The translations under genes were made by a program, and so were the position numbers. 32,239 bases of DNA from Verrucomicrobiota bacterium (lineage in GTDB: Bacteria; Verrucomicrobiota; Verrucomicrobiia; Chthoniobacterales; UBA10450): the NCBI GenBank assembly GCA_003219195.1, contig QHPX01000086.1:587-32825 (forward strand), in the 5' to 3' direction. Under the pieces are notes generated by a model. The model was not told the DNA's origin and made no database searches. It saw only the letters and a list, made by a program, of their open reading frames with translations. Of this stretch, positions 6,013 to 18,277 are shown piece by piece; the first letter of the stretch is position 1, and the number at the start of each line of letters is the position of its first letter.

Positions 6013-6072
6013 GCTTGTAGTCGCGGCAGTTTGATCGAACATTCTCCCTCTGGCGCCTGTCTCATCACACAC

Positions 6073-7059
6073 ATGAAATCCACTCAGGAAATTACGGCCG
6101 AAGTGCAACGGCTCGGCCAATGGATTCCTGCATTGCGCGAACAAATCGGGCATGTGGTAATCGGGCAGAAATATCTGGTCGATCGACTTCTGCTTGGCTT
6201 GCTCGCGAACGGTCACATTTTGCTCGAAGGCGTGCCCGGCCTGGCGAAAACGCTGACCGTGAAAACGATGGCCGCCTGCATTCAAACCGGCTTTCAGCGG
6301 CTGCAATTTACGCCCGATCTTCTGCCCGCCGATTTGATCGGCACGCTCATCTACAACCCGCGCACCGGAGAATTTACAACCAAGCTCGGCCCGATCTTTT
6401 CAAATTTGATCCTGGCCGACGAAATCAATCGCGCTCCGGCCAAAGTGCAAAGCGCGCTGCTTGAGGCGATGCAGGAAAGGCAAGTGACGATCGGCGAACA
6501 AACTTATCCGCTCTCCGATCCATTCCTCGTGCTCGCCACACAGAATCCGATCGAGCAGGAAGGAACTTATCAACTGCCCGAAGCGCAGCTCGATCGTTTC
6601 ATGTTAAAATTGAATATTGGTTATCCGCAAAAATCCGAGGAACGAACAATTCTCGATTTGATGGCGACTTCGGCGCCGGACTTGCACGTCAATGCGGTGG
6701 TCGACCCGAAACAGGTCATCGCGGCGCGCGATATCGTAAACCAAATTTACATCGACGATCGCGTGAAGGATTACATTGTCGATGTTGTTTGGGCGACGCG
6801 CGATCCGGCCGCCTATAATTTGCGGCTCGAAGGATTGGTTCGGTACGGAGCATCACCGCGCGCCACGATTTATTTGGCGCTCGGCGCACGCGCGCACGCA
6901 TTTCTCAACCGCCGCGGTTATGTCACACCGCAAGATGTGAAAAGCATCGGCCCGGATGTGTTGCGTCATCGCATCATCGTCAGCTACGAAGCCGAAGCTG
7001 AGGCGGTCACGAGCGAGACAATCGTGGAAAAAATCTTTGCCGGGCTTCCGGTGCCCTAG
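6073..7059 (+). CDS. MoxR-type AAA+ ATPase
   Basis: A 328-residue AAA+ ATPase of the MoxR family. These proteins act as chaperone-like remodellers for VWA-domain partners encoded next to them. Walker A is GVPGLAKT (53-60), Walker B is LILADEIN (112-119), and the sensor/arginine regions ATQNPIEQEGTYQLPEAQ and LDRF follow, with the C-terminal lid domain after that. I start at the ATG at 6073; an in-frame TTG at 6031 lies just past the palindromic element and adds non-conserved residues. It leads the Bat operon, 8 bases before the DUF58 gene. The product would energise assembly or activation of the BatA and BatB VWA proteins. Confidence 0.9.
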   Translation: MKSTQEITAEVQRLGQWIPALREQIGHVVIGQKYLVDRLLLGLLANGHILLEGVPGLAKTLTVKTMAACIQTGFQRLQFTPDLLPADLIGTLIYNPRTGEFTTKLGPIFSNLILADEINRAPAKVQSALLEAMQERQVTIGEQTYPLSDPFLVLATQNPIEQEGTYQLPEAQLDRFMLKLNIGYPQKSEERTILDLMATSAPDLHVNAVVDPKQVIAARDIVNQIYIDDRVKDYIVDVVWATRDPAAYNLRLEGLVRYGASPRATIYLALGARAHAFLNRRGYVTPQDVKSIGPDVLRHRIIVSYEAEAEAVTSETIVEKIFAGLPVP

Positions 7060-7067
7060 CTCGCAAG

Positions 7068-7967
7068 ATGAGGGAAACGGAACAGAAAACAGCAGAGATT
7101 CTAAAAAAGATCCGGACACTCGAGATCAAAACACGCGGCTTGGTCGAGACCGCATTCGCGGGGGATTATCACAGCGTCTTTAAAGGACGCGGCATGAATT
7201 TTGAGGATGTGCGCGAATATCAACCGGGAGACGAAATTCGCGCGATCGACTGGAATGTGACGGCGCGGCTCGGCACAGCGTTCGTAAAACAATTCACCGA
7301 GGAGCGCGAGTTGACCGTGATGTTGATTGTCGATGTTAGCGCGTCAGGCAATTTCGGCAGCACCACGCAATCGAAGCGCGAACTTGCGGCAGAAGTTGCG
7401 TGCTTGCTCGCGTTCAGCGCAATTCGAAATAACGACAAGGTCGGCCTGCTTCTCTTTTCCGATCGGGTCGAGCTTTTCATTCCGCCAAAGAAAGGCCGGT
7501 CGCATACATTGCGATTAATTCGAGAAATCCTGTTCTTTCAACCCGGGGGACGCGGGACTGCGCCGGCGCTTGCGCTCGATTATCTAAACAAGATCGTCAC
7601 GCGCCGCGCGGTTGTATTTTTTATTTCCGATTTTCAAGCGCCCGACTTTTCACACGCTCTCGCCGTGAGCGGGCGGAGGCACGATTTCATTGCCATTCAT
7701 ATTCAGGATGAGCGGGAGAAGGTCTTGCCCGGCATTGGAATCATCACGCTGGAAGACGCCGAAACCGGCGAGCAAATCGAAGTGAACACGATGGAGCGCG
7801 CGACCCGGCAGCGTTTTACTGATTTCGCAGACGAACAGGAAGCGGAACTTTCGCGCACACTCCGTCGCAGCAACATCGACGCGATCGCCTTGCGGACGGG
7901 AGAGGATTATTTGCCGGCTTTGCGCTCATTCTTCAAGCAACGCGAGCGACGTGTGGCGGTTCGATAA
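7068..7967 (+). CDS. DUF58 domain protein (VWA-like MoxR partner)
   Basis: A 299-residue soluble DUF58 protein. The signature region GRGMNFEDVREYQPGDEIR followed by AIDWNVTARLG (residues 40-69) and the VWA-like beta strand VMLIVDVSASG (84-94) define the family. DUF58 genes almost always sit directly downstream of moxR genes, as here (8-base gap), and the product is thought to be a MoxR partner. No signal peptide or membrane helix is seen, so it should be cytoplasmic. Its TAA stop shares its last base with the ATG of the next gene (TAATG), indicating translational coupling. Confidence 0.88.
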   Translation: MRETEQKTAEILKKIRTLEIKTRGLVETAFAGDYHSVFKGRGMNFEDVREYQPGDEIRAIDWNVTARLGTAFVKQFTEERELTVMLIVDVSASGNFGSTTQSKRELAAEVACLLAFSAIRNNDKVGLLLFSDRVELFIPPKKGRSHTLRLIREILFFQPGGRGTAPALALDYLNKIVTRRAVVFFISDFQAPDFSHALAVSGRRHDFIAIHIQDEREKVLPGIGIITLEDAETGEQIEVNTMERATRQRFTDFADEQEAELSRTLRRSNIDAIALRTGEDYLPALRSFFKQRERRVAVR

Positions 7968-8491
7968 TGCCGATCTTGTCCATGTCGATCTTGCTGGCGG
8001 AAGAATTTCACGACATTGCACCGCCGGTCGATTATTCGTTGGTCCCGCCGTGGGTGATTTTTGTCGCGACGTTTGCTGGATTAACTTTGCTCGGCTTGGT
8101 GACCTGGTTGATTTTACGGAAGCGTCAGCGGCCGCAACCACCAAGACTGCCGCGCGATATTGCGCTTGAGTCGCTCGAGCAAATCAGCGCCGAGATCGAG
8201 AGAATCAGTCCGTATCGATTCAGCATTCGTGTGTCGGACATTCTTCGCCGCTACGTCACCGAGCAATATGCACTGCCGGTGACACGCCAGACATCGGTCG
8301 AATTTCTAAACGCGCTCACGAAATCTTCCCCGTTTTCGGACGAGGAAACGAGGCTGCTCGAGAATTTCCTGAATCGATGCGACCTGATTAAATTCGCGCG
8401 TTACGATGCGACGACGGCGGACAGTCGTTCGCTTCTCGAAGAAGCAACGCGCTTTGTCAAAGGAGGAGAACTTGCAACTACATTTGCCTGA
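7967..8491 (+). CDS. Membrane-anchored DUF4381-like protein of the Bat operon
   Basis: A 174-residue protein with a short periplasmic N-terminus, one clear transmembrane helix (about 28-51, WVIFVATFAGLTLLGLVTWL) and a basic, proline-containing stretch leading to a cytoplasmic helical domain (LEQISAEIERISPYRFSIRV...). This layout fits the small DUF4381-type proteins found between DUF58 and BatA genes. The start ATG overlaps the stop of the DUF58 gene. It probably couples the MoxR/DUF58 pair to the membrane VWA proteins; this is inferred from position only. Its 3' end overlaps the ribosome site and first codons of batA. Confidence 0.65.
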   Translation: MPILSMSILLAEEFHDIAPPVDYSLVPPWVIFVATFAGLTLLGLVTWLILRKRQRPQPPRLPRDIALESLEQISAEIERISPYRFSIRVSDILRRYVTEQYALPVTRQTSVEFLNALTKSSPFSDEETRLLENFLNRCDLIKFARYDATTADSRSLLEEATRFVKGGELATTFA

Positions 8492-9527
8492 TTGGGCGGC
8501 GCGTACCGCGCTCACGTTCGCGCGTCCGTGGTTGCTCCTGTTGTTGCTCGGGATCCCGTTGCTCGCCTACTTACGCGGGAAACGTGGGCCCGCGGCGGCG
8601 TTGACCTTTTCGTCAACAGCGACGCTGCGCGCCATCGGAAAACAGAGCGCTGCTCGCGCCGGCAAAATGCTGCGCGCGCTGTTGCTCGCAACTTTAGCGC
8701 TTTTCGTCGCCGCGCTGGCGCGGCCGCAACTTGGTAGAAGTCTTACTCAAGTCGAAGCCAGCGGCATCGACATCATGCTCGTGCTCGATGTCTCCGGGTC
8801 GATGTTGATAAAAGATTTTACGATCGGCGGCGAAGAGGCGACGCGGCTTGATGCGATCCGTGAAGTAACGCGAAAGTTCATCGGGGGTCGGCCGAACGAT
8901 CGCATTGGCATCATCGCCTTCGGCGGCCGGCCTTACGTGGTAAGTCCGATGACTTTGGATCACGATTGGCTTTTGCAAAATCTCGAACGCGTGCGGATCG
9001 GACTGGTTGAAGATGGCACTGCCATCGGATCGGCCATGGCTGTGGCAGCGAACCGACTCAACGACAAGCGCTCCAAGAGCCGCGCCATCGTACTTTTAAC
9101 TGATGGAGAAAATAACGCCGGAAAGATTCCGCCAAATACCGCGGCGGAAGCGGTAAAGGCGCTTCACATCCACTTCTACGCGATCGGCGCGGGCATTAAC
9201 GGAGTCGCGCCAGTGCCGATCTTTACCCCGCGGGGCCCGCTCACCGATACCCTGGGGAACATTCTCTACGAAAACCAGCGCGTGGAATTCAATGAGGCCG
9301 GGTTGAAGGAAGTGGCCAAGATCGCAGGCGGACAATTTTTCCGCGCGACCGACACGAAGTCGCTCGAACAAATCTATCAAGACATCGACAAACTTGAGAA
9401 ATCGACCGTCAGCGTGAAAAAATATCAGGAATATCGAGAATTATTTGCGCTCTGCATCATGAGCGGCTGCGGTTTGCTGCTCGGGCAGATTTTGCTGTCG
9501 CAGACAATCTGGAAAAAATTGCCGTGA
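8472..9527 (+). CDS. batA: BatA-like VWA domain membrane protein
   Basis: A 351-residue protein with two N-terminal hydrophobic segments (about 19-35 and 68-82), a VWA domain (about 98-290) and a C-terminal transmembrane helix. The MIDAS metal site is intact: LDVSGSM (D106, S108, S110), the downstream threonine region EDGTAIG, and LLTDGEN. The start is set by a strong Shine-Dalgarno AGGAGGAG (8461-8468) a few bases before the TTG at 8472. There is no closer ATG, and the upstream ATG at 8406 would lie deep in the previous gene. BatA and BatB are described as aerotolerance-linked inner-membrane VWA proteins; the exact role here is inferred from operon context. Confidence 0.87.
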   Translation: MQLHLPDWAARTALTFARPWLLLLLLGIPLLAYLRGKRGPAAALTFSSTATLRAIGKQSAARAGKMLRALLLATLALFVAALARPQLGRSLTQVEASGIDIMLVLDVSGSMLIKDFTIGGEEATRLDAIREVTRKFIGGRPNDRIGIIAFGGRPYVVSPMTLDHDWLLQNLERVRIGLVEDGTAIGSAMAVAANRLNDKRSKSRAIVLLTDGENNAGKIPPNTAAEAVKALHIHFYAIGAGINGVAPVPIFTPRGPLTDTLGNILYENQRVEFNEAGLKEVAKIAGGQFFRATDTKSLEQIYQDIDKLEKSTVSVKKYQEYRELFALCIMSGCGLLLGQILLSQTIWKKLP

Positions 9528-9543
9528 AGGAGATGTCGATCTT

Positions 9544-11745
9544 ATGAGCTTCGGGGCGCCGGAATGGTTTTGGGGATTGCTGGCGATACCAGTTCTAGTG
9601 GCTCTTTACGTTCGCGCAGAATACCGCGGCGCCGAGCGTTTGGGCGAATTTGTTTCGCCGCGCCTGCTCCCGCAACTCTCGGGGACGGTGAATCGATTTC
9701 GCCGCGTCCTGCGTTTCGGGTTGCAACTGTTCGGCCTCGTTTGCGCGATCGTCAGCCTGGCTCAACCCCGCTGGGGCTATACGTTCCAGGATGTAAAACG
9801 CAAAGGTCTCGATTTGCTCATCGCGGTGGACACGTCGCGCAGCATGCTTTCTAACGACGTGCCACCGAACCGTCTGGAACGCGTCAAACTCGCGGCGCAG
9901 GATTTGATTAACGAATTGGAAGGCGATCGTGTCGGCTTGATTGCGTTTGCCGGTCGCGCCTTTTTGCAAGCCCCGCTGACAATCGATTACGAAGCCGCTG
10001 TGGAATCGATCAACGATCTTGATACAAAAACGATTCCCGAAGGCGGGACAAATATCTCGGAAGCAATCGCGCTCGCGTCGCGAACTTTCGGAAAGAGCGC
10101 GATGGGAAATCGCGCGCTGATTATTTTTACCGATGGCGAAGAGTTAAGCGGCGACGCAATGCAAAGCGCGAAGATTGCGGCCGACACCGGTGTACGCATT
10201 TTTACGGTTGGCGTGGGGACGCCGGAAGGCTCGCTCATTCCGATCAGTGGGGAAGATGGCGGAACAGCTTTTGTCAAAGACTCCGCAGGCCAAGTCGTAA
10301 AATCGAAATTGGATGAAAAACGCTTGCGCGAGATTGCGCAAGCCAGCGGAGGATTTTATTTGTACTTGGAAAACGGCCCGCGCACAATGCAGCAGATTTA
10401 CACTGAAGGCCTCGCCAAAATGCAAGCCGCCGAGCTCGACGTGCGCTTGTCGCGACGGCCAATCGAGCGCTACGAATGGCCACTCGGCGTCGCTTTGCTC
10501 GCGCTCGCCACGTCGATCTTGATTGGCGAGCGCAAACGGGTGCGCGAAAGAATTTATTCTCGCGCGCCGGCAAAGATCGCGGCAGCAACCGCTGCTCTCC
10601 TGATCTTTTTCGCGCCATTCGCCTTTGCCGCGGTCTCCGGGCTGGAAGCCTATCGTAAGGGGGAGTTCGGTGATGCTTACACGCAATTTCAGCAAACATT
10701 ACAGGCGCATCCGCAGTCGCGCGCGGAAGATAAGCTTCATTTCGATTCCGGCGCGGCGGCTTACAAAATGAAAGATTATGGCAAAGCGCTGGAATCGTTC
10801 AGTCAGGCGCTGCTCTCGCCTGATCGCGGTCTGCAGAGCAAGAGCCATTACAATCTCGGCAACACGCTTTATGAGCATGGCGAAACGCAAAAGAGCGACG
10901 ACAAAAAGCTGAGCGATTGGGCAAACGCGCTGCAGCACTATGAGCAGACGCTTAAGGTCGAACCGCAGAACAAAGAGGCGGAGGAGAATTACGAATACGT
11001 AAAGAAAAAGATCGAGGAGCTAAAGAAAAAGCGCGAGCAACCGCCGCCACCCTCGCCTTCGCCCTCGCCGCCATCAAAGCCGCAAAAGAACGAAAAGCAA
11101 AATAACCAAAATCAGCAACAGCAATCCTCGTCGCAAGATCGACAACAACAGCAGAAAGAGCAGGACCAACAGCAGCAGCAGCAATCACACGCTCAAAACA
11201 AACCCGAAAACGGCCAAAACCAAAGACCAGAAGACAAACAGGACCAAGCTCAAGCAAAGAACGAACAACAGAAGAAAAAGCAGCCAGAACCGGGCGAAAG
11301 CCCGTCGCCTTCGCCCGGCGACGGACAGCAGCAACAAAATCAACCCTCATCTTCGCCCGGGAAACAAAAAGGCGAGCAGGCTACAAAAAATCAATCGCCC
11401 GGCGAGCGACAGGCGGAGGAATCGCCAAGTCCCGGTGAAGGCGAAAGCGAGACGCCCTCGCCATCGCCGGGAGAAGGTGAAGGCTCAGGCGAAAATGCAA
11501 CGCCATCCGCTACTCCCTCAGAATCGCCGCAAAAGAAATTCGCTGGCGAATTGAAAGGAGCCGCAAGCGAGAAGCCGGAGAAGCCGCCGGAACAAACCGC
11601 GCAGATTGCCGAGGCCGAACCGGAGAAAGAAGGTCAAATGAGCGAACGCCAGGCCGAGGCGCTCCTCCAGTCGATGAAGGATGAAGAGGCGCGTGTGCGA
11701 TTGGATGAACACAAGGCCGCACGCCATGTCTATAACGACTGGTAG
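9544..11745 (+). CDS. Fused BatB-BatC protein: VWA domain, TPRs and Q/P/S-rich tail
   Basis: A 733-residue fusion. Residues 1-330 are BatB-like: two N-terminal hydrophobic segments, a VWA domain with MIDAS DTSRS (96-100), GGTNIS and FTDGEE, and a membrane helix at 312-327. A second hydrophobic stretch (345-362) ends in AFAAVSG, like the signal peptide a free BatC would carry. It is followed by BatC-like TPRs (about 365-480). Residues 500-690 are low complexity, made of K/Q/N blocks and repeated SPSPGEGE-like units. The last 50 residues (MSERQAEALLQSMKDEEARV) match the conserved end of BatC-type proteins. BatB and BatC are usually separate genes. The expected topology puts the VWA and TPR parts in the periplasm. 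Confidence 0.85.
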   Translation: MSFGAPEWFWGLLAIPVLVALYVRAEYRGAERLGEFVSPRLLPQLSGTVNRFRRVLRFGLQLFGLVCAIVSLAQPRWGYTFQDVKRKGLDLLIAVDTSRSMLSNDVPPNRLERVKLAAQDLINELEGDRVGLIAFAGRAFLQAPLTIDYEAAVESINDLDTKTIPEGGTNISEAIALASRTFGKSAMGNRALIIFTDGEELSGDAMQSAKIAADTGVRIFTVGVGTPEGSLIPISGEDGGTAFVKDSAGQVVKSKLDEKRLREIAQASGGFYLYLENGPRTMQQIYTEGLAKMQAAELDVRLSRRPIERYEWPLGVALLALATSILIGERKRVRERIYSRAPAKIAAATAALLIFFAPFAFAAVSGLEAYRKGEFGDAYTQFQQTLQAHPQSRAEDKLHFDSGAAAYKMKDYGKALESFSQALLSPDRGLQSKSHYNLGNTLYEHGETQKSDDKKLSDWANALQHYEQTLKVEPQNKEAEENYEYVKKKIEELKKKREQPPPPSPSPSPPSKPQKNEKQNNQNQQQQSSSQDRQQQQKEQDQQQQQQSHAQNKPENGQNQRPEDKQDQAQAKNEQQKKKQPEPGESPSPSPGDGQQQQNQPSSSPGKQKGEQATKNQSPGERQAEESPSPGEGESETPSPSPGEGEGSGENATPSATPSESPQKKFAGELKGAASEKPEKPPEQTAQIAEAEPEKEGQMSERQAEALLQSMKDEEARVRLDEHKAARHVYNDW
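11040..11530 (+). repeat. Low-complexity coding segment (Q/K and SPSPGE repeats)
   Basis: Within the BatB-BatC gene, CAG/CAA-rich runs (QQQQ blocks) alternate with imperfect repeats coding SPSPSP, SPSPGDG, ESPSPGEGE and TPSPSPGEG. It encodes a disordered linker, probably spanning the envelope or cell wall zone, and is prone to replication slippage. Confidence 0.75.
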
Positions 11746-11773
11746 AACGATGGCGTTCGATGTTTGATTGAAG

Positions 11774-13633
11774 ATGTCGATGTACGGAGTGCGTGCTTCC
11801 ATTCCAGTTTTTTTCCTGACGCTGACCGCGTTTGGCGGAGCCAATTGCGTGTTTGCGGATGCTCCGAGAGTGACGGCAGTTCTGAGCAACTCGGAAGCCG
11901 CCGTCGGACAAACGGTCCAGTTGCAAATCAAAGTCACGGGCGATCGCGCTGCGCAAGCGCCCGAAAATATCGTTATTGACGGTCTCGAAATTAATCGCAC
12001 CGGAACAGAACAGCACTTCGAGATGAACAACTTCAACGTGAGCTCGAGCGTGATTTACAATTACACGATTCTCCCGCTCAAATCCGGCACGTTCAAAATT
12101 CCGCCGCAAACGGTTCGCATCCGCAGCAGTTCGCTGCGCACACCGGAATTGACATTAAACGTCGCGGATTCACCTGGTCGTTCCTCTTCGTCGCGCTCAA
12201 ATCGCAACCTGCAACCTGGCGATGCGGACAAGCTTGTCTTCGCCGAATTGATCGTGCCCAAAAAGATTGCCTTTGTCGGCGAGACGGTGCCAGTCGAAAT
12301 TCGGCTTGGCTTTGACCCGCGTGCACATCCGAAGTTGGTCGATGGCCCGGAGATAACCGGGCAGGGATTTACCGCGCAAAAGTTGCAGCAGTCCCAGGAG
12401 AATCTGGAAACGCTCAACGGCAGATCTTATGACGTGGTGACGTTCAAGACTGCGGTCGCGGCCGCGCGCGCGGGAAAATTCGAAATCGGGCCCGTGAAAG
12501 CGAAAGCGCAGGTGTCGCTCCCACGAACCCCGAGCACGTCACGATCGCGCTCACGCTCGCCCTTCGACCTGTTCAACTTGGATGATCCCTTCTCCGATCC
12601 GTTCTTTGCAGACCCATTTGGTCAATCCGAGCGGCGCGAGATTGACGTGGAAAGTGAACCCGCAACCTTCGAGGTGAAACCGCTGGCCGCGAATGCGCCG
12701 CCGAGCTTCTCCGGCGCGGTCGGAAATTTCACGATGACGACAGACGCCGAGCCAAAAAATGTGCAAGCCGGCGACCCGATTACCGTAACATCGACAATCT
12801 CCGGGCGCGGAAATTTCGATCGCGTCAATGCGCCTGTCTTTGAGGATGAGCGAGGCTGGCACAAATATCCGCCATCCGCCAAGTTCAAGCAGGACGACGA
12901 TGTCGGTATTAGCGGCGCGAAAACCTTCGAGACCGTTATTTCACCGAATGAAAAGAAACAGGCCCTTCCGCTTCTGGCATTTTCGTATTTCGATCCGCTA
13001 AAAGAAAAATATGTGACGCTGCGGAGCGACGCGATCCCGATCAGTGTCCAGGGTGGCGCCCCGATCCCACCGAACGCGGTCGCATCGCAGCCGGCGGCAA
13101 CGGCGCCAGCTACCGTCGGTGCGAAGCCCTCGCCGAAGCCGCAGGATATTTTGTATCAACTGACGGAACGTCCCCCGCGCGCGCAGTCGTTCACGCCGCT
13201 GTTCGCGTGCCCGATCTTCTGGATTGCCCAGCTGATCCCGCTGGCGGCACTGCTTGGATTTGCCGGATGGAAAATCCGGCAAGCGAAGATCGACAATCGC
13301 GAAGCGCGTCGCATCGGCGCTTTGCACCAGGAATCGACTGATCTTTTGCGAAGGTTAAGACGAGGCGAGGTGTCGCCGCAGGAATATTTCTCGGACGCTT
13401 CCCGCGCTGTGCGGGTGAAGACGGCGCTCGCCAAGAATGTGGATCCAAACGCAGTAGATGCGGAAATGGCGGCAGCAACGTTTCGGCTCGACGAAAGCTC
13501 CCGCGCGCAATTGCGCCGGTTGTTCGAGCGAAGCGACGAATTGCGTTACAGCGGCCGTCCCAATGGGACCGGAACAATTTCCCCGGAAAACCGCCGTGAA
13601 GTGCTGGAGCTAATCGAGAATTTACGGGTATGA
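11774..13633 (+). CDS. batD: BatD-like protein (oxygen tolerance family)
   Basis: About 620 residues with an N-terminal signal peptide (VFFLTLTAFGGANCVFADA), an extended beta-rich region (APRVTAVLSNSEAAVGQTV, then repeated Ig-like strands), and a C-terminal transmembrane helix (PIFWIAQLIPLAALLGFAGW, about residues 475-495). A basic cytoplasmic tail follows. This is the BatD layout: periplasmic beta-sandwiches tethered to the inner membrane beside BatA/B/C. An in-frame TTG lies two codons upstream of the chosen ATG at 11774. A serine/arginine and D/P/F-rich insert (SRSRSRSPFDLFNLDDPFSD) lies near residue 260. The stop overlaps the next gene's start by ATGA, so the two are coupled. Confidence 0.82.
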   Translation: MSMYGVRASIPVFFLTLTAFGGANCVFADAPRVTAVLSNSEAAVGQTVQLQIKVTGDRAAQAPENIVIDGLEINRTGTEQHFEMNNFNVSSSVIYNYTILPLKSGTFKIPPQTVRIRSSSLRTPELTLNVADSPGRSSSSRSNRNLQPGDADKLVFAELIVPKKIAFVGETVPVEIRLGFDPRAHPKLVDGPEITGQGFTAQKLQQSQENLETLNGRSYDVVTFKTAVAAARAGKFEIGPVKAKAQVSLPRTPSTSRSRSRSPFDLFNLDDPFSDPFFADPFGQSERREIDVESEPATFEVKPLAANAPPSFSGAVGNFTMTTDAEPKNVQAGDPITVTSTISGRGNFDRVNAPVFEDERGWHKYPPSAKFKQDDDVGISGAKTFETVISPNEKKQALPLLAFSYFDPLKEKYVTLRSDAIPISVQGGAPIPPNAVASQPAATAPATVGAKPSPKPQDILYQLTERPPRAQSFTPLFACPIFWIAQLIPLAALLGFAGWKIRQAKIDNREARRIGALHQESTDLLRRLRRGEVSPQEYFSDASRAVRVKTALAKNVDPNAVDAEMAAATFRLDESSRAQLRRLFERSDELRYSGRPNGTGTISPENRREVLELIENLRV

Positions 13634-14376
13634 AACAACTTATTGTCGCTCTTTGCTGTATGATGGTTTGCACATTTGTTGTTTCACCGGCATTTCCGCA
13701 GTCGGATGCGGAATTTGCCAAAGCAAACGCGAATTATGCGGCAGGCCATTTTCAAGAGGCAGTCAACGGTTATGAAACACTCGTCCGCTCGGGAGAATGG
13801 AGCGCAAATCTGTTTTACAATCTCGGCAACGCTTACTTCCGAGTGGGAGATTTCGGGCATGCGATTTTGAATTACGAACGCGCACTCGCGCTGGATCGAC
13901 ATCATCCGGAAGCGGACGCGAATTTGCGCATCGTGCGAGATGAGGCACGCGCACTGGAGATGCAATCAAGCTGGCCGGAGCGTTATTTCCAATTTGGGAG
14001 CCTCAGTCAATACAGTGTCGTGGCGGCGGTCGCCTTCTGGCTCGGGATGTTTTGCGTTTTCCGGTTGATCTTCGGGCGACGCCGTTCCGCTGCGATCATC
14101 GCATTGTCGATCTTATCTTTTTCGACTTTCGTTATTGCGGCTTTTGCGATTTATAAACTCGAGAATGGCAACAACGGGCGCGCACTTGCGATTGTGACTG
14201 GCACCGGAGTCGAAGCGCGGTTTGCTACCGCAGACAGTGCGAACAGCGTCCTCGCGCTGCCTCCTGGCAGCGAAATCAAAATCCTGAGTACTCGCGGAGA
14301 CTGGATTTATGCGGCGCTGCCCAACAATCTGCGCGGCTGGCTTCCGGCGAAGAGCGCGGAATTGGTGCGGCTGTAG
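13630..14376 (+). CDS. BatE-like TPR protein with C-terminal SH3-like domain
   Basis: A 248-residue protein. It has a signal peptide (1-23), TPR motifs (about 27-112, including NLFYNLGNAYFRVGDFGHAI and LNYERALALDRHHPEADANL), two membrane helices (about 120-180) and a C-terminal SH3-like domain (VEARFATADSANSVLALPPG, GDWIYAALPNNLRGWLPA). The same order of domains is seen in BatE-type proteins that close Bat operons. The TPRs face the periplasm and would contact BatB-BatC and BatD. The ATGA overlap with batD indicates translational coupling. It appears complete, and a hairpin follows downstream. Confidence 0.78.
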   Translation: MKQLIVALCCMMVCTFVVSPAFPQSDAEFAKANANYAAGHFQEAVNGYETLVRSGEWSANLFYNLGNAYFRVGDFGHAILNYERALALDRHHPEADANLRIVRDEARALEMQSSWPERYFQFGSLSQYSVVAAVAFWLGMFCVFRLIFGRRRSAAIIALSILSFSTFVIAAFAIYKLENGNNGRALAIVTGTGVEARFATADSANSVLALPPGSEIKILSTRGDWIYAALPNNLRGWLPAKSAELVRL

Positions 14377-15978: not shown

Positions 15979-17052
15979 ATGGCCAGACGCGGAGATTCCG
16001 TTATCGGGATAGATTTAGGCAAGCATGCGTTCAAAGGCGTGTCGCTGCGCCAGAACAGCGATTCCCGCCTCGTGCTCACGAACTTCGCTTCGCGCGAAGT
16101 GCCGGAAGAATTCGCCACGGTCGATGAATTGGCGCAGCCACTGAAACTTTTACTGCGCGAACTTGGCGGACGTATCAGGGGTTGTGCCCTCGCCATATCT
16201 CATCCCGTCGCGCTCTTGCGCATCATCGAGCAACCCAGCACGCCCATTAACTTGCTCCGCAATGCGCTGCGTTTAAATGGACTGGCTGTGCTCAACCAGG
16301 AATGCAAAGATTTCGTGCTCGATGTCGCGCCGGTGTGCGCAAATGGAACTGGCGAAGGCAGTGCGAGCGGAATCGACTCGGGCGGGGTAGCGGTTCAGAG
16401 CGCCGTCGCGACAAAAACCAAGTACCTCGTGGGTGGAATGCTGCGTCAAACCGTGAAGCAAATATCTGAAGCCATGAACAAGACGCGTGTCTCGGCGGAC
16501 ATTCTTCAACTGGCTCCGGTATGTTCGTTCAACGCTTTCGAATTCGCTTACCCGGAAATTTTCCACAACGACGCTTTTCTCCTCCTCGACATGGGACACT
16601 CCCAGAGCACGGTGCTCATGGGCAGCAAAGGAGAACTGGTGCTGGTGCGCGGCATCGATTACGGAGGAAAGACGCTCCGGCAAGCGCTCACCGCAGACGG
16701 TGCGCTCGAAAAAGATGCAGCCTGGACGCTGCTTCAGCAGGGCGATCCGGGGATGGCAGGGATCTGCCGTGCATCGTTCGCGCGCCTCGCCACCGAGGTC
16801 CGTAACTCGATCGGCTTCTTCGAAGGGCAAAGGGAAGAAAGCATTAGCCGAGTTTGTGTTTCCGGCGGATTAGCCCGCATCGAGACCATTCTCCAGATGC
16901 TGAGCGACGAGCTCGGACTGCCGTGTGAAATTTGGGATCCGCTGGAGACATGTGAAGTGGCCCTCTCCGCGCCGAAGCGAGAGGCCCTCCCCCATGAATT
17001 TGTTTCGCTCAACGTCGCCTGCGGGGCGGCATTCGAATACCTCAGAACCTAA
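15979..17052 (+). CDS. pilM: Type IV pilus assembly protein PilM (actin-like ATPase fold)
   Basis: A 357-residue cytoplasmic protein with the actin/FtsA-like fold. Phosphate-1 loop VIGIDLGKHAFKGVSL (8-23), phosphate-2 loop AFLLLDMGHSQSTVLM (about 199-214) and the adenosine motif VCVSGGLARIETILQML (about 293-309) are all visible. PilM binds the N-terminal tail of PilN and links the pilus motor to the inner-membrane PilN/PilO/PilP complex. The gene is followed 6 bases later by the PilN-like gene, in the order M-N-O-P. Akkermansia has a comparable pilM-containing block. The sequence is full length with no obvious loss of motif. Confidence 0.85.
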   Translation: MARRGDSVIGIDLGKHAFKGVSLRQNSDSRLVLTNFASREVPEEFATVDELAQPLKLLLRELGGRIRGCALAISHPVALLRIIEQPSTPINLLRNALRLNGLAVLNQECKDFVLDVAPVCANGTGEGSASGIDSGGVAVQSAVATKTKYLVGGMLRQTVKQISEAMNKTRVSADILQLAPVCSFNAFEFAYPEIFHNDAFLLLDMGHSQSTVLMGSKGELVLVRGIDYGGKTLRQALTADGALEKDAAWTLLQQGDPGMAGICRASFARLATEVRNSIGFFEGQREESISRVCVSGGLARIETILQMLSDELGLPCEIWDPLETCEVALSAPKREALPHEFVSLNVACGAAFEYLRT

Positions 17053-17058
17053 CGAGCG

Positions 17059-17712
17059 ATGGCACTTCATCTCAACCTCCTTCACGAGGAGATTCTGGAA
17101 CAAAGACAACGCCAGCGCGATCCGCTGAAGATCGGCATGATCGCGCTCGTCGGCTGTGGCGTGTTGCTTTTTCTTTATTACACTTGGAACGCGTACCGAA
17201 CCCTGGAGATCAAGAGCCGCTTGACCACAATCGAGCGAGCTTGGAAGAAGATCGAACCAGGGGTGACCGCCGCGCAAAAGCGGGTCGCGGACCTTGAAGG
17301 CGTCATTAAAACCACGCGGGCACTCGACGATTACATCGACAATCGATTCTTCTGGGCGCCAGTTTTGCAAAAGGTTTCACGCTGTGTAGCGCCGAATACG
17401 CAGTTAACCAATTTTGAAGGCGCCGTTCAGGATGAGAACAGAGAGATCGACGTCTCCCTTGAAGGCATAGCGGCCGGGCGCGAACCACGATCCGTCGCGG
17501 AAGATCTACGCCAGATGCTGCTCGAACAGTTTCACCAGAGCTACAGCGACGTGAAGGCGGAGTTCAAAACCCTCGAAGACCTCGATACCATCGTTAATGT
17601 CGCCGGCACACACATGGCGACGGCGCATTACATTCTCACCGTAAATTTCAATCCAGCTGCTATGCCCAAGCCTGGCGAATCGCCCGCTGCCACGCGCGCC
17701 CGGAAACAATGA
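17059..17712 (+). CDS. PilN-like type IV pilus inner-membrane protein
   Basis: A 217-residue bitopic protein. The N-terminus MALHLNLLHEEI resembles the INLLP motif by which PilN inserts into PilM. A transmembrane helix (about 26-44, IGMIALVGCGVLLFLYYTW), a coiled-coil segment (55-85, RLTTIERAWKKIEPGVTAAQ...) and a periplasmic ferredoxin-like domain follow. The cysteine in KVSRCVAPNTQLTNFEG sits where PilN proteins have conserved hydrophobic residues. It is 6 bases after pilM and 4 bases before the PilO-like gene. Sequence similarity to characterised PilN is weak, so the call relies on topology, the NLL motif and position. Confidence 0.72.
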   Translation: MALHLNLLHEEILEQRQRQRDPLKIGMIALVGCGVLLFLYYTWNAYRTLEIKSRLTTIERAWKKIEPGVTAAQKRVADLEGVIKTTRALDDYIDNRFFWAPVLQKVSRCVAPNTQLTNFEGAVQDENREIDVSLEGIAAGREPRSVAEDLRQMLLEQFHQSYSDVKAEFKTLEDLDTIVNVAGTHMATAHYILTVNFNPAAMPKPGESPAATRARKQ

Positions 17713-17716
17713 ATCC

Positions 17717-18277
17717 ATGAAGGTAAACAAAGATCAGATCAAGAAGCTGTTTCTTAGTACCATGGGCTTCATATTTTTACTCTACGTTTACTTTAGCTTC
17801 TTCCTCGGCCCGCTGAATCGAAGCCGCGATGGCATGCTGCTAGAGATTAAAGATCTTCAAAGCAAGCTGGACGCCTCCAAGGAGCAAATGAACAAAGCGG
17901 TCAAGCTCGAACAACAGGCCAAAACTTCGACCGGTCGTTTTGCGGCATTAAAGGCCCTCAATCCGGAAGGCGCGCCGATTGCCTGGTTTCCTCCTCGAGT
18001 CAGAGCATTCTTCGCAAACCAGCAGGTCGATAAAGTTGTTGCGAGGCTCGAAGGCAGCACCGGCTTCAAGCCAACCGAGCTTACCGGATGGATGAAATAC
18101 AGCTGGATAATCGACCTTCCCCAGGCCGATTACGGAACGTTAGGCCGCGCAATCGCTGAACTGGAAAACACCGCCCCTCTCCTGTCGATCACGAAGCTGA
18201 GCATCCACACCTTGCCCGAGCAATCCCAATTCCAGCATGTCGGTCTTGCCGCCGTTAACATCATTGAAAAGAAATGA
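17717..18277 (+). CDS. PilO-like type IV pilus inner-membrane protein
   Basis: A 186-residue bitopic protein. It has a short basic N-terminus (MKVNKDQIKK), a transmembrane helix (about 11-31, LFLSTMGFIFLLYVYFSFFL), a coiled coil (about 38-75, LLEIKDLQSKLDASKEQMNK) and a small periplasmic alpha/beta domain. PilO pairs with PilN in the periplasm and supports the secretin-linked alignment complex. It sits between the PilN-like and PilP-like genes, and its TGA overlaps the next ATG (ATGA). The call rests on topology and gene order. Confidence 0.68.
   Translation: MKVNKDQIKKLFLSTMGFIFLLYVYFSFFLGPLNRSRDGMLLEIKDLQSKLDASKEQMNKAVKLEQQAKTSTGRFAALKALNPEGAPIAWFPPRVRAFFANQQVDKVVARLEGSTGFKPTELTGWMKYSWIIDLPQADYGTLGRAIAELENTAPLLSITKLSIHTLPEQSQFQHVGLAAVNIIEKK

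Follow-up and report, generated by a model that had tools for sequence, protein, structure and literature searches.

An intact batB-batC gene fusion in a Verrucomicrobiota Bat operon is the common form among its relatives

Here, we report that positions 9544-11745 of a 32,239-nucleotide stretch of DNA from a Verrucomicrobiota bacterium, hereafter the window, hold a single intact frame that joins BatB to BatC. The fusion is real and ordinary for the group to which the organism belongs. Our reading, to which we give a probability of roughly 0.88, is that a single gene stands for batB and batC in an ordinary Bat operon and that both halves of its product would lie in the periplasm, in a MoxR-linked Bat complex. 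A batB-batC fusion has already been reported from Leptospira biflexa (PMC3557215).

The operon that holds the fused gene is an ordinary Bat operon. Its gene order, assigned by Pfam, is moxR, DUF58, DUF4381, batA, batB::batC, batD and batE-like, and its genes are as follows.

6031..7059, + strand, moxR, AAA+ ATPase (Pfam)
7068..7967, + strand, DUF58 protein (Pfam)
7967..8491, + strand, DUF4381 protein (Pfam)
8406..9527, + strand, batA, VWA (Pfam)
9544..11745, + strand, fused batB::batC frame, 733 amino acids, stop included
11768..13633, + strand, batD (Pfam)
13630..14376, + strand, batE-like TPR protein (TPR by Pfam)

The true start of batA is probably downstream of the first listed ATG. The end of the batE-like protein reads as what we take to be an SH3-like domain. 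Further along the window, at 15979-18277, three open reading frames resemble pilM, pilN and pilO by eye.

The frame of batB::batC is open throughout, and a Pfam search finds a BatA N-terminal domain, a VWA domain and TPR repeats in one chain of 733 residues; a first-pass annotation of this DNA had proposed such a fusion of BatB and BatC. The BatB part consists of two N-terminal helices, a VWA domain with a complete MIDAS and a third helix. The BatC part consists of a signal-like helix, the TPR domain, a tail rich in Q, P and S, and a conserved C-terminal helix. The segments, all on the + strand, are listed below.

9544..9768, + strand, BatA/BatB N-terminal two-helix domain, residues 1-75 (PF07584; helices 6-36 and 51-72 in the structure model)
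9811..10305, + strand, VWA domain, residues 90-254 (nearest solved folds 3ibs and 4jdu)
10474..10521, + strand, third BatB membrane helix, residues 311-326 (model)
10528..10572, + strand, positively charged loop ERKRVRERIYSRAPA, residues 329-343 (sequence; presumably on the cytoplasmic side)
10573..10629, + strand, BatC signal-peptide-like helix kept in the fusion, residues 344-362 (signal peptidase I might cut after Ala362)
10636..11037, + strand, BatC TPR domain, residues 365-498 (Pfam and model)
11050..11631, + strand, disordered tail rich in Q, P and S, residues 503-696 (model)
11644..11742, + strand, conserved C-terminal helix and NDW end, residues 701-733 (alignment, model and C-terminal counts)

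PF07584 matches with 33.1 bits (cut-off 25.9) and PF13519 with 77.4 bits (cut-off 27). In the VWA domain, D96, S98, S100 and D197 are invariant among 36 aligned proteins and T169 is found in 90% or more; these five residues we take to be the MIDAS positions. The VWA part matches Bacteroides BatB 3ibs with an E value of 3.1e-44 in a sequence search, and 4jdu and 3ibs head the list in a fold search, so that the VWA fold is shared with Bacteroides BatB. The TPR family PF07719 (TPR_2) scores 38.8 bits over the whole protein (cut-off 27), with its best repeat at 398-423. No single repeat of the window protein passes E 0.01 by itself in Pfam, and the predicted structure has helical repeats over 365-498. 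The window protein does not reach the cut-offs of the Leptospira-specific models NF047506 for BatB (118.5 of 350 bits) and NF047507 for BatC (28.7 of 175 bits).

Most of the relatives examined carry the fused form, and it is not unusual. After removal of identical sequences and broken loci, the distinct Verrucomicrobiota BatB sequences comprise 156 fused, 29 split and 13 unjudged. In the cluster nearest to the window, defined by a BatB profile score of 470 bits or more and including Chthoniobacter flavus, the distinct sequences comprise 58 fused and 2 unjudged, and no split batB/batC was found among these 60. The first-pass annotation had presented the fusion as a departure from VWA and TPR proteins that are normally separate, which is overstated, and it had called for a survey of the two forms; fusion emerged from that survey as the majority and as the sole judged form in the nearest cluster, yet split genes occur elsewhere in the phylum. 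The close relatives occur in records labelled Chthoniobacterales, Spartobacteria or Verrucomicrobia. All loci with a BatB frame number 232, of which 187 are fused, 29 split, 9 truncated at the end of a contig, 4 of another kind (L040, L207, L212, L214) and 3 broken (L099, L108, L110), the last three classes being counted neither as fused nor as split. These locus counts are redundant because they come from several scans whose loci overlap; for this reason the distinct sequences are counted separately. Two of the scans, on overlapping sets, matched 108/113 and 107/115 genomes, and up to 30 loci from each were examined. The survey was not random, one scan favouring close relatives and 60 regions being picked by hand. 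In 15 of the 187 fused loci the TPR profile is silent in the C-terminal half, which is therefore BatC by position only.

Across the phylum, lineages with the fused form are interspersed with lineages with the split form. In a rapidly built tree, some of whose branches are long (n=132, 103 fused and 29 split; nearest cluster thinned to every seventh row; L161 labelled split by hand; L040, L110, L207, L212 and L214 omitted), the fused/split label must change 11 times, against 26.7 for shuffled labels, and well-supported branches force at least 9 of these changes; fusion and fission are indistinguishable on this tree. At the split loci the two genes overlap by four bases in 26 of 29 cases (ATGA in 24, GTGA in 2), by one base in 2 and otherwise in 1, so that batB and batC could be joined or parted repeatedly by minor changes in this overlap. 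One pair with the same family and genus code comprises a fused locus (L191) and a split neighbour (L187); in this pair, BatB's own terminal RKR stands ahead of the former signal peptide.

Several further observations were made on these loci. In L204, L208-L210, L213, L215, L216 and L218 (family codes f24, f25 and f20) BatB is fused to a C-terminal half without a TPR profile match, which is either a diverged BatC or another partner. BatB frames are broken inside the VWA part in L099, L108, L110 and contig C144 of genome G001, and also further on in L108 and G001, through either sequencing errors or decay. Three separate matches to BatB lie on contig C1 of G128, a genome from the same class, near 1372190, 1715144 and 3396014.

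The tail of the protein, which had been called unusual, turns out to be a normal BatC feature. Residues 503-696 are disordered in the model and are followed by a helix at 701-722 of moderate to good confidence. Among 52 close relatives, pairwise identity is 0.72 in the region of the C-terminal helix and 0.47 in the tail. A terminal W is found in 154 of 174 complete fused frames, redundant loci included, and in the batB-coupled BatC of 21 of the 29 split loci; 7 of the other 8 have a separate same-strand frame ending KDW. The split BatC of Parabacteroides has a Q-rich tail and an EW end, and Q-rich tails also occur in the Vibrio and Pseudoalteromonas fused proteins described below. The recurrence of the W end, the C-terminal helix and the Q-rich tail in split and other BatC proteins assigns the tail to BatC. 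At the seven split loci with the separate KDW frame (L156, L163, L164, L166, L167, L168 and L170), which is 165-204 amino acids long, the batB-coupled frame lacks the W end, and BatC may itself be encoded there in two pieces. The fused BatBC of a Vibrio campbellii plasmid record (L234) has a run of 125 consecutive glutamines in its tail.

The hydrophobic segment at 344-366 carries APFAFA followed by AVSG, and residues 344-362 are, to judge from their sequence, the former BatC signal peptide, in the position that the signal peptide takes in split BatC. This agrees with the retention of a BatC signal-like segment that the first-pass annotation had noticed; its placing of both halves in the periplasm is a plausible topology. 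We propose that helices 1-2 and helix 3 would hold the VWA domain on the periplasmic side of the membrane, as their counterparts do in other BatA and BatB proteins, with the caveat that TM1 and TM3 of the window protein are weakly hydrophobic on the insertion-energy scale used (5.44 and 4.8). The Arg/Lys-rich loop 329-343 would remain cytoplasmic, and its positive charges suggest that the VWA and TPR halves both face the periplasm. The former signal peptide would restart translocation and so still export the TPR half, the tail and the C-terminal helix, and the two periplasmic halves would act within the MoxR-linked Bat complex. Of the Borrelia homologues, BB0173 is reported to lie in the inner membrane with its VWA domain in the periplasm, and BB0172 is reported as an outer-membrane protein (PMC5700661), so that location may vary within the family.

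The fate of the junction depends on whether signal peptidase I cuts after Ala362, for which sequence features leave about even odds. A cut would make the protein a polyprotein that releases a soluble periplasmic BatC and leaves either a fourth helix or the remnant of a signal peptide on BatB, and we regard this outcome as evenly balanced. Position 362 is a small residue, A or G, in 45/52 aligned close relatives, and [AVSTG]xA occurs within 12 residues before Gly366 in 43/52. Across junction clusters this motif is in excess (69/95 where shuffling predicts 57.8, z 2.7), as in split BatC (17/24, z 1.9) and the BatD/E signal peptides (106/132, z 3.3), unlike in the second helix of BatE (19/34 against 18.7, z 0.1). 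The apolar run of the junctions is short (16 residues), near that of split BatC (14) and of the BatD/E signal peptides (16) and unlike that of the BatE second helix (23). On the insertion-energy scale used, the junction median of 4.04 lies between split BatC (5.13) and the BatD/E signal peptides (2.76), far from the BatE second helix (-1.06). However, TM2 of BatB and of BatA, both presumably uncut, have the same or a larger excess (24/36, z 3.4, and 19/26, z 3.3; when the motif is restricted to AxA, z is 5.1 and 5.0, and the junctions reach 2.8). Their apolar runs, of 16 and 15 residues, are as short as that of the junctions, and TM3 of BatB matches the junction in its weak hydrophobicity (insertion energy 3.91). 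The junctions are, by these measures, closer to signal peptides than the BatE second helix is, yet not separable from BatA/BatB TM2. The classes could not be usefully told apart with an 18-column signal-peptide matrix for which BatD/BatE N-termini served as the training set (fused 9.1, proteobacterial fused 5.6, split BatC 9.6, training 13.2; BatB TM2 8.1, BatA TM2 8.6, BatE second helix 9.2). The evolutionary rate was not decisive: the junction helix evolves at 0.32, the BatB TM1-3 at 0.60-0.63 and the BatE and BatD signal peptides at 0.21 and 0.27, but the rate of the BatE second helix, also 0.32, equals that of the junction. A 7-column matrix was discarded because it had drifted into the hydrophobic core; its medians were 5.10 for fused, 4.50 for split, 5.70 for BatB TM2, 5.46 for BatA TM2 and 5.01 for the BatE second helix.

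Alternatively, the product may stay uncut as a four-helix membrane protein with its BatB and BatC domains locked 1:1, a tentative reading of appreciable though minority probability. The junction segment of the window protein has an insertion energy of 0.16 on the same scale, which makes it hydrophobic enough to remain as an anchor and more so than the protein's own TM1, TM2 and TM3 (5.44, 2.43 and 4.8), and the model draws a single helix at 342-360 with low confidence (block means 50-54). Junctions as a group keep the small-residue motif and the short core, which is more than anchoring alone needs; these features are nevertheless compatible with anchoring because BatA/BatB TM2 show the same. 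Additional production of BatC by initiation at a start codon within the loop is decidedly improbable: a GTG at residue 333 does stand upstream of a usable signal peptide, but the window protein has no ATG between residues 326 and 372, and in the loops of 152 fused proteins ATG is found in 35, GTG in 64 and TTG in 39, with ATG or GTG plus a Shine-Dalgarno-like word in only 8. That an assembly or sequencing artefact joined two genes is very unlikely indeed. The draft genome from which the window comes is in 183 contigs; however, all judged members of the nearest cluster, from many separate assemblies, are fused, and the broken L099, L108 and L110, left out of that cluster count, are interrupted in the VWA part and none at the junction.

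In PMC3557215, the fused BatB-BatC of L. biflexa, like that of the window, is one gene inside a bat cluster with VWA plus TPR, in a different phylum, and the passages drawn on here make no mention of an internal signal peptide; the fusion is apparently missing from pathogenic leptospires, and bat fusions are mentioned for Borrelia, Spirochaeta thermophila and Francisella. For Borrelia, PMC5700661 describes another fusion, one that joins BatD to TPR/SH3 parts. In Parabacteroides (L239), the split BatC resembles that of the window in its TPR, signal-like N-terminus, Q-rich tail and C-terminal EW (NDW in the window), but in Bacteroides and Parabacteroides BatB and BatC are two separate genes. Proteobacteria also have fused VWA-TPR proteins, three annotated (Vibrio sp. 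WP_166015242.1, A. tumefaciens WP_174005219.1 and R. leguminosarum WP_012755491.1) and three in unannotated frames (V. campbellii, Pseudoalteromonas and Cupriavidus), with 23.6-26.5% identity to the window protein by tblastn. All six share its junction helix, Arg/Lys, hydrophobic stretch and AxA-like end, a cleavage-type motif that favours a cut, and the three annotated ones have the same gene order. Three of the six have a W end and three do not; unlike the window protein, those of the rhizobia and Cupriavidus are short in the tail and lack the W end. Our literature search, which covered few subscription journals, found no paper on an internal signal peptide in BatB-BatC fusions. The FbcH cytochrome b/c1 is a polyprotein with known cleavage, and BatBC, although unrelated, would work alike if its internal signal peptide is cut.

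The role of Bat proteins is disputed between papers: moxR and batA of Riemerella are tied to heat and oxidative stress (PMC11834572), and a protective role could not be shown in L. biflexa (PMC3557215). A fusion that occurs naturally and recurs suggests that BatB and BatC work as direct partners. With not quite an even chance, fused BatBC proteins in several phyla are polyproteins, in which repeated fusion of ATGA-coupled genes keeps a cleavable internal signal and one chain always provides equal numbers of BatB and BatC. Cleavage at the junction would make BatBC a simple and widespread bacterial polyprotein; without it, the BatB and BatC parts would be fixed at 1:1 and the topology of the complex would be constrained.
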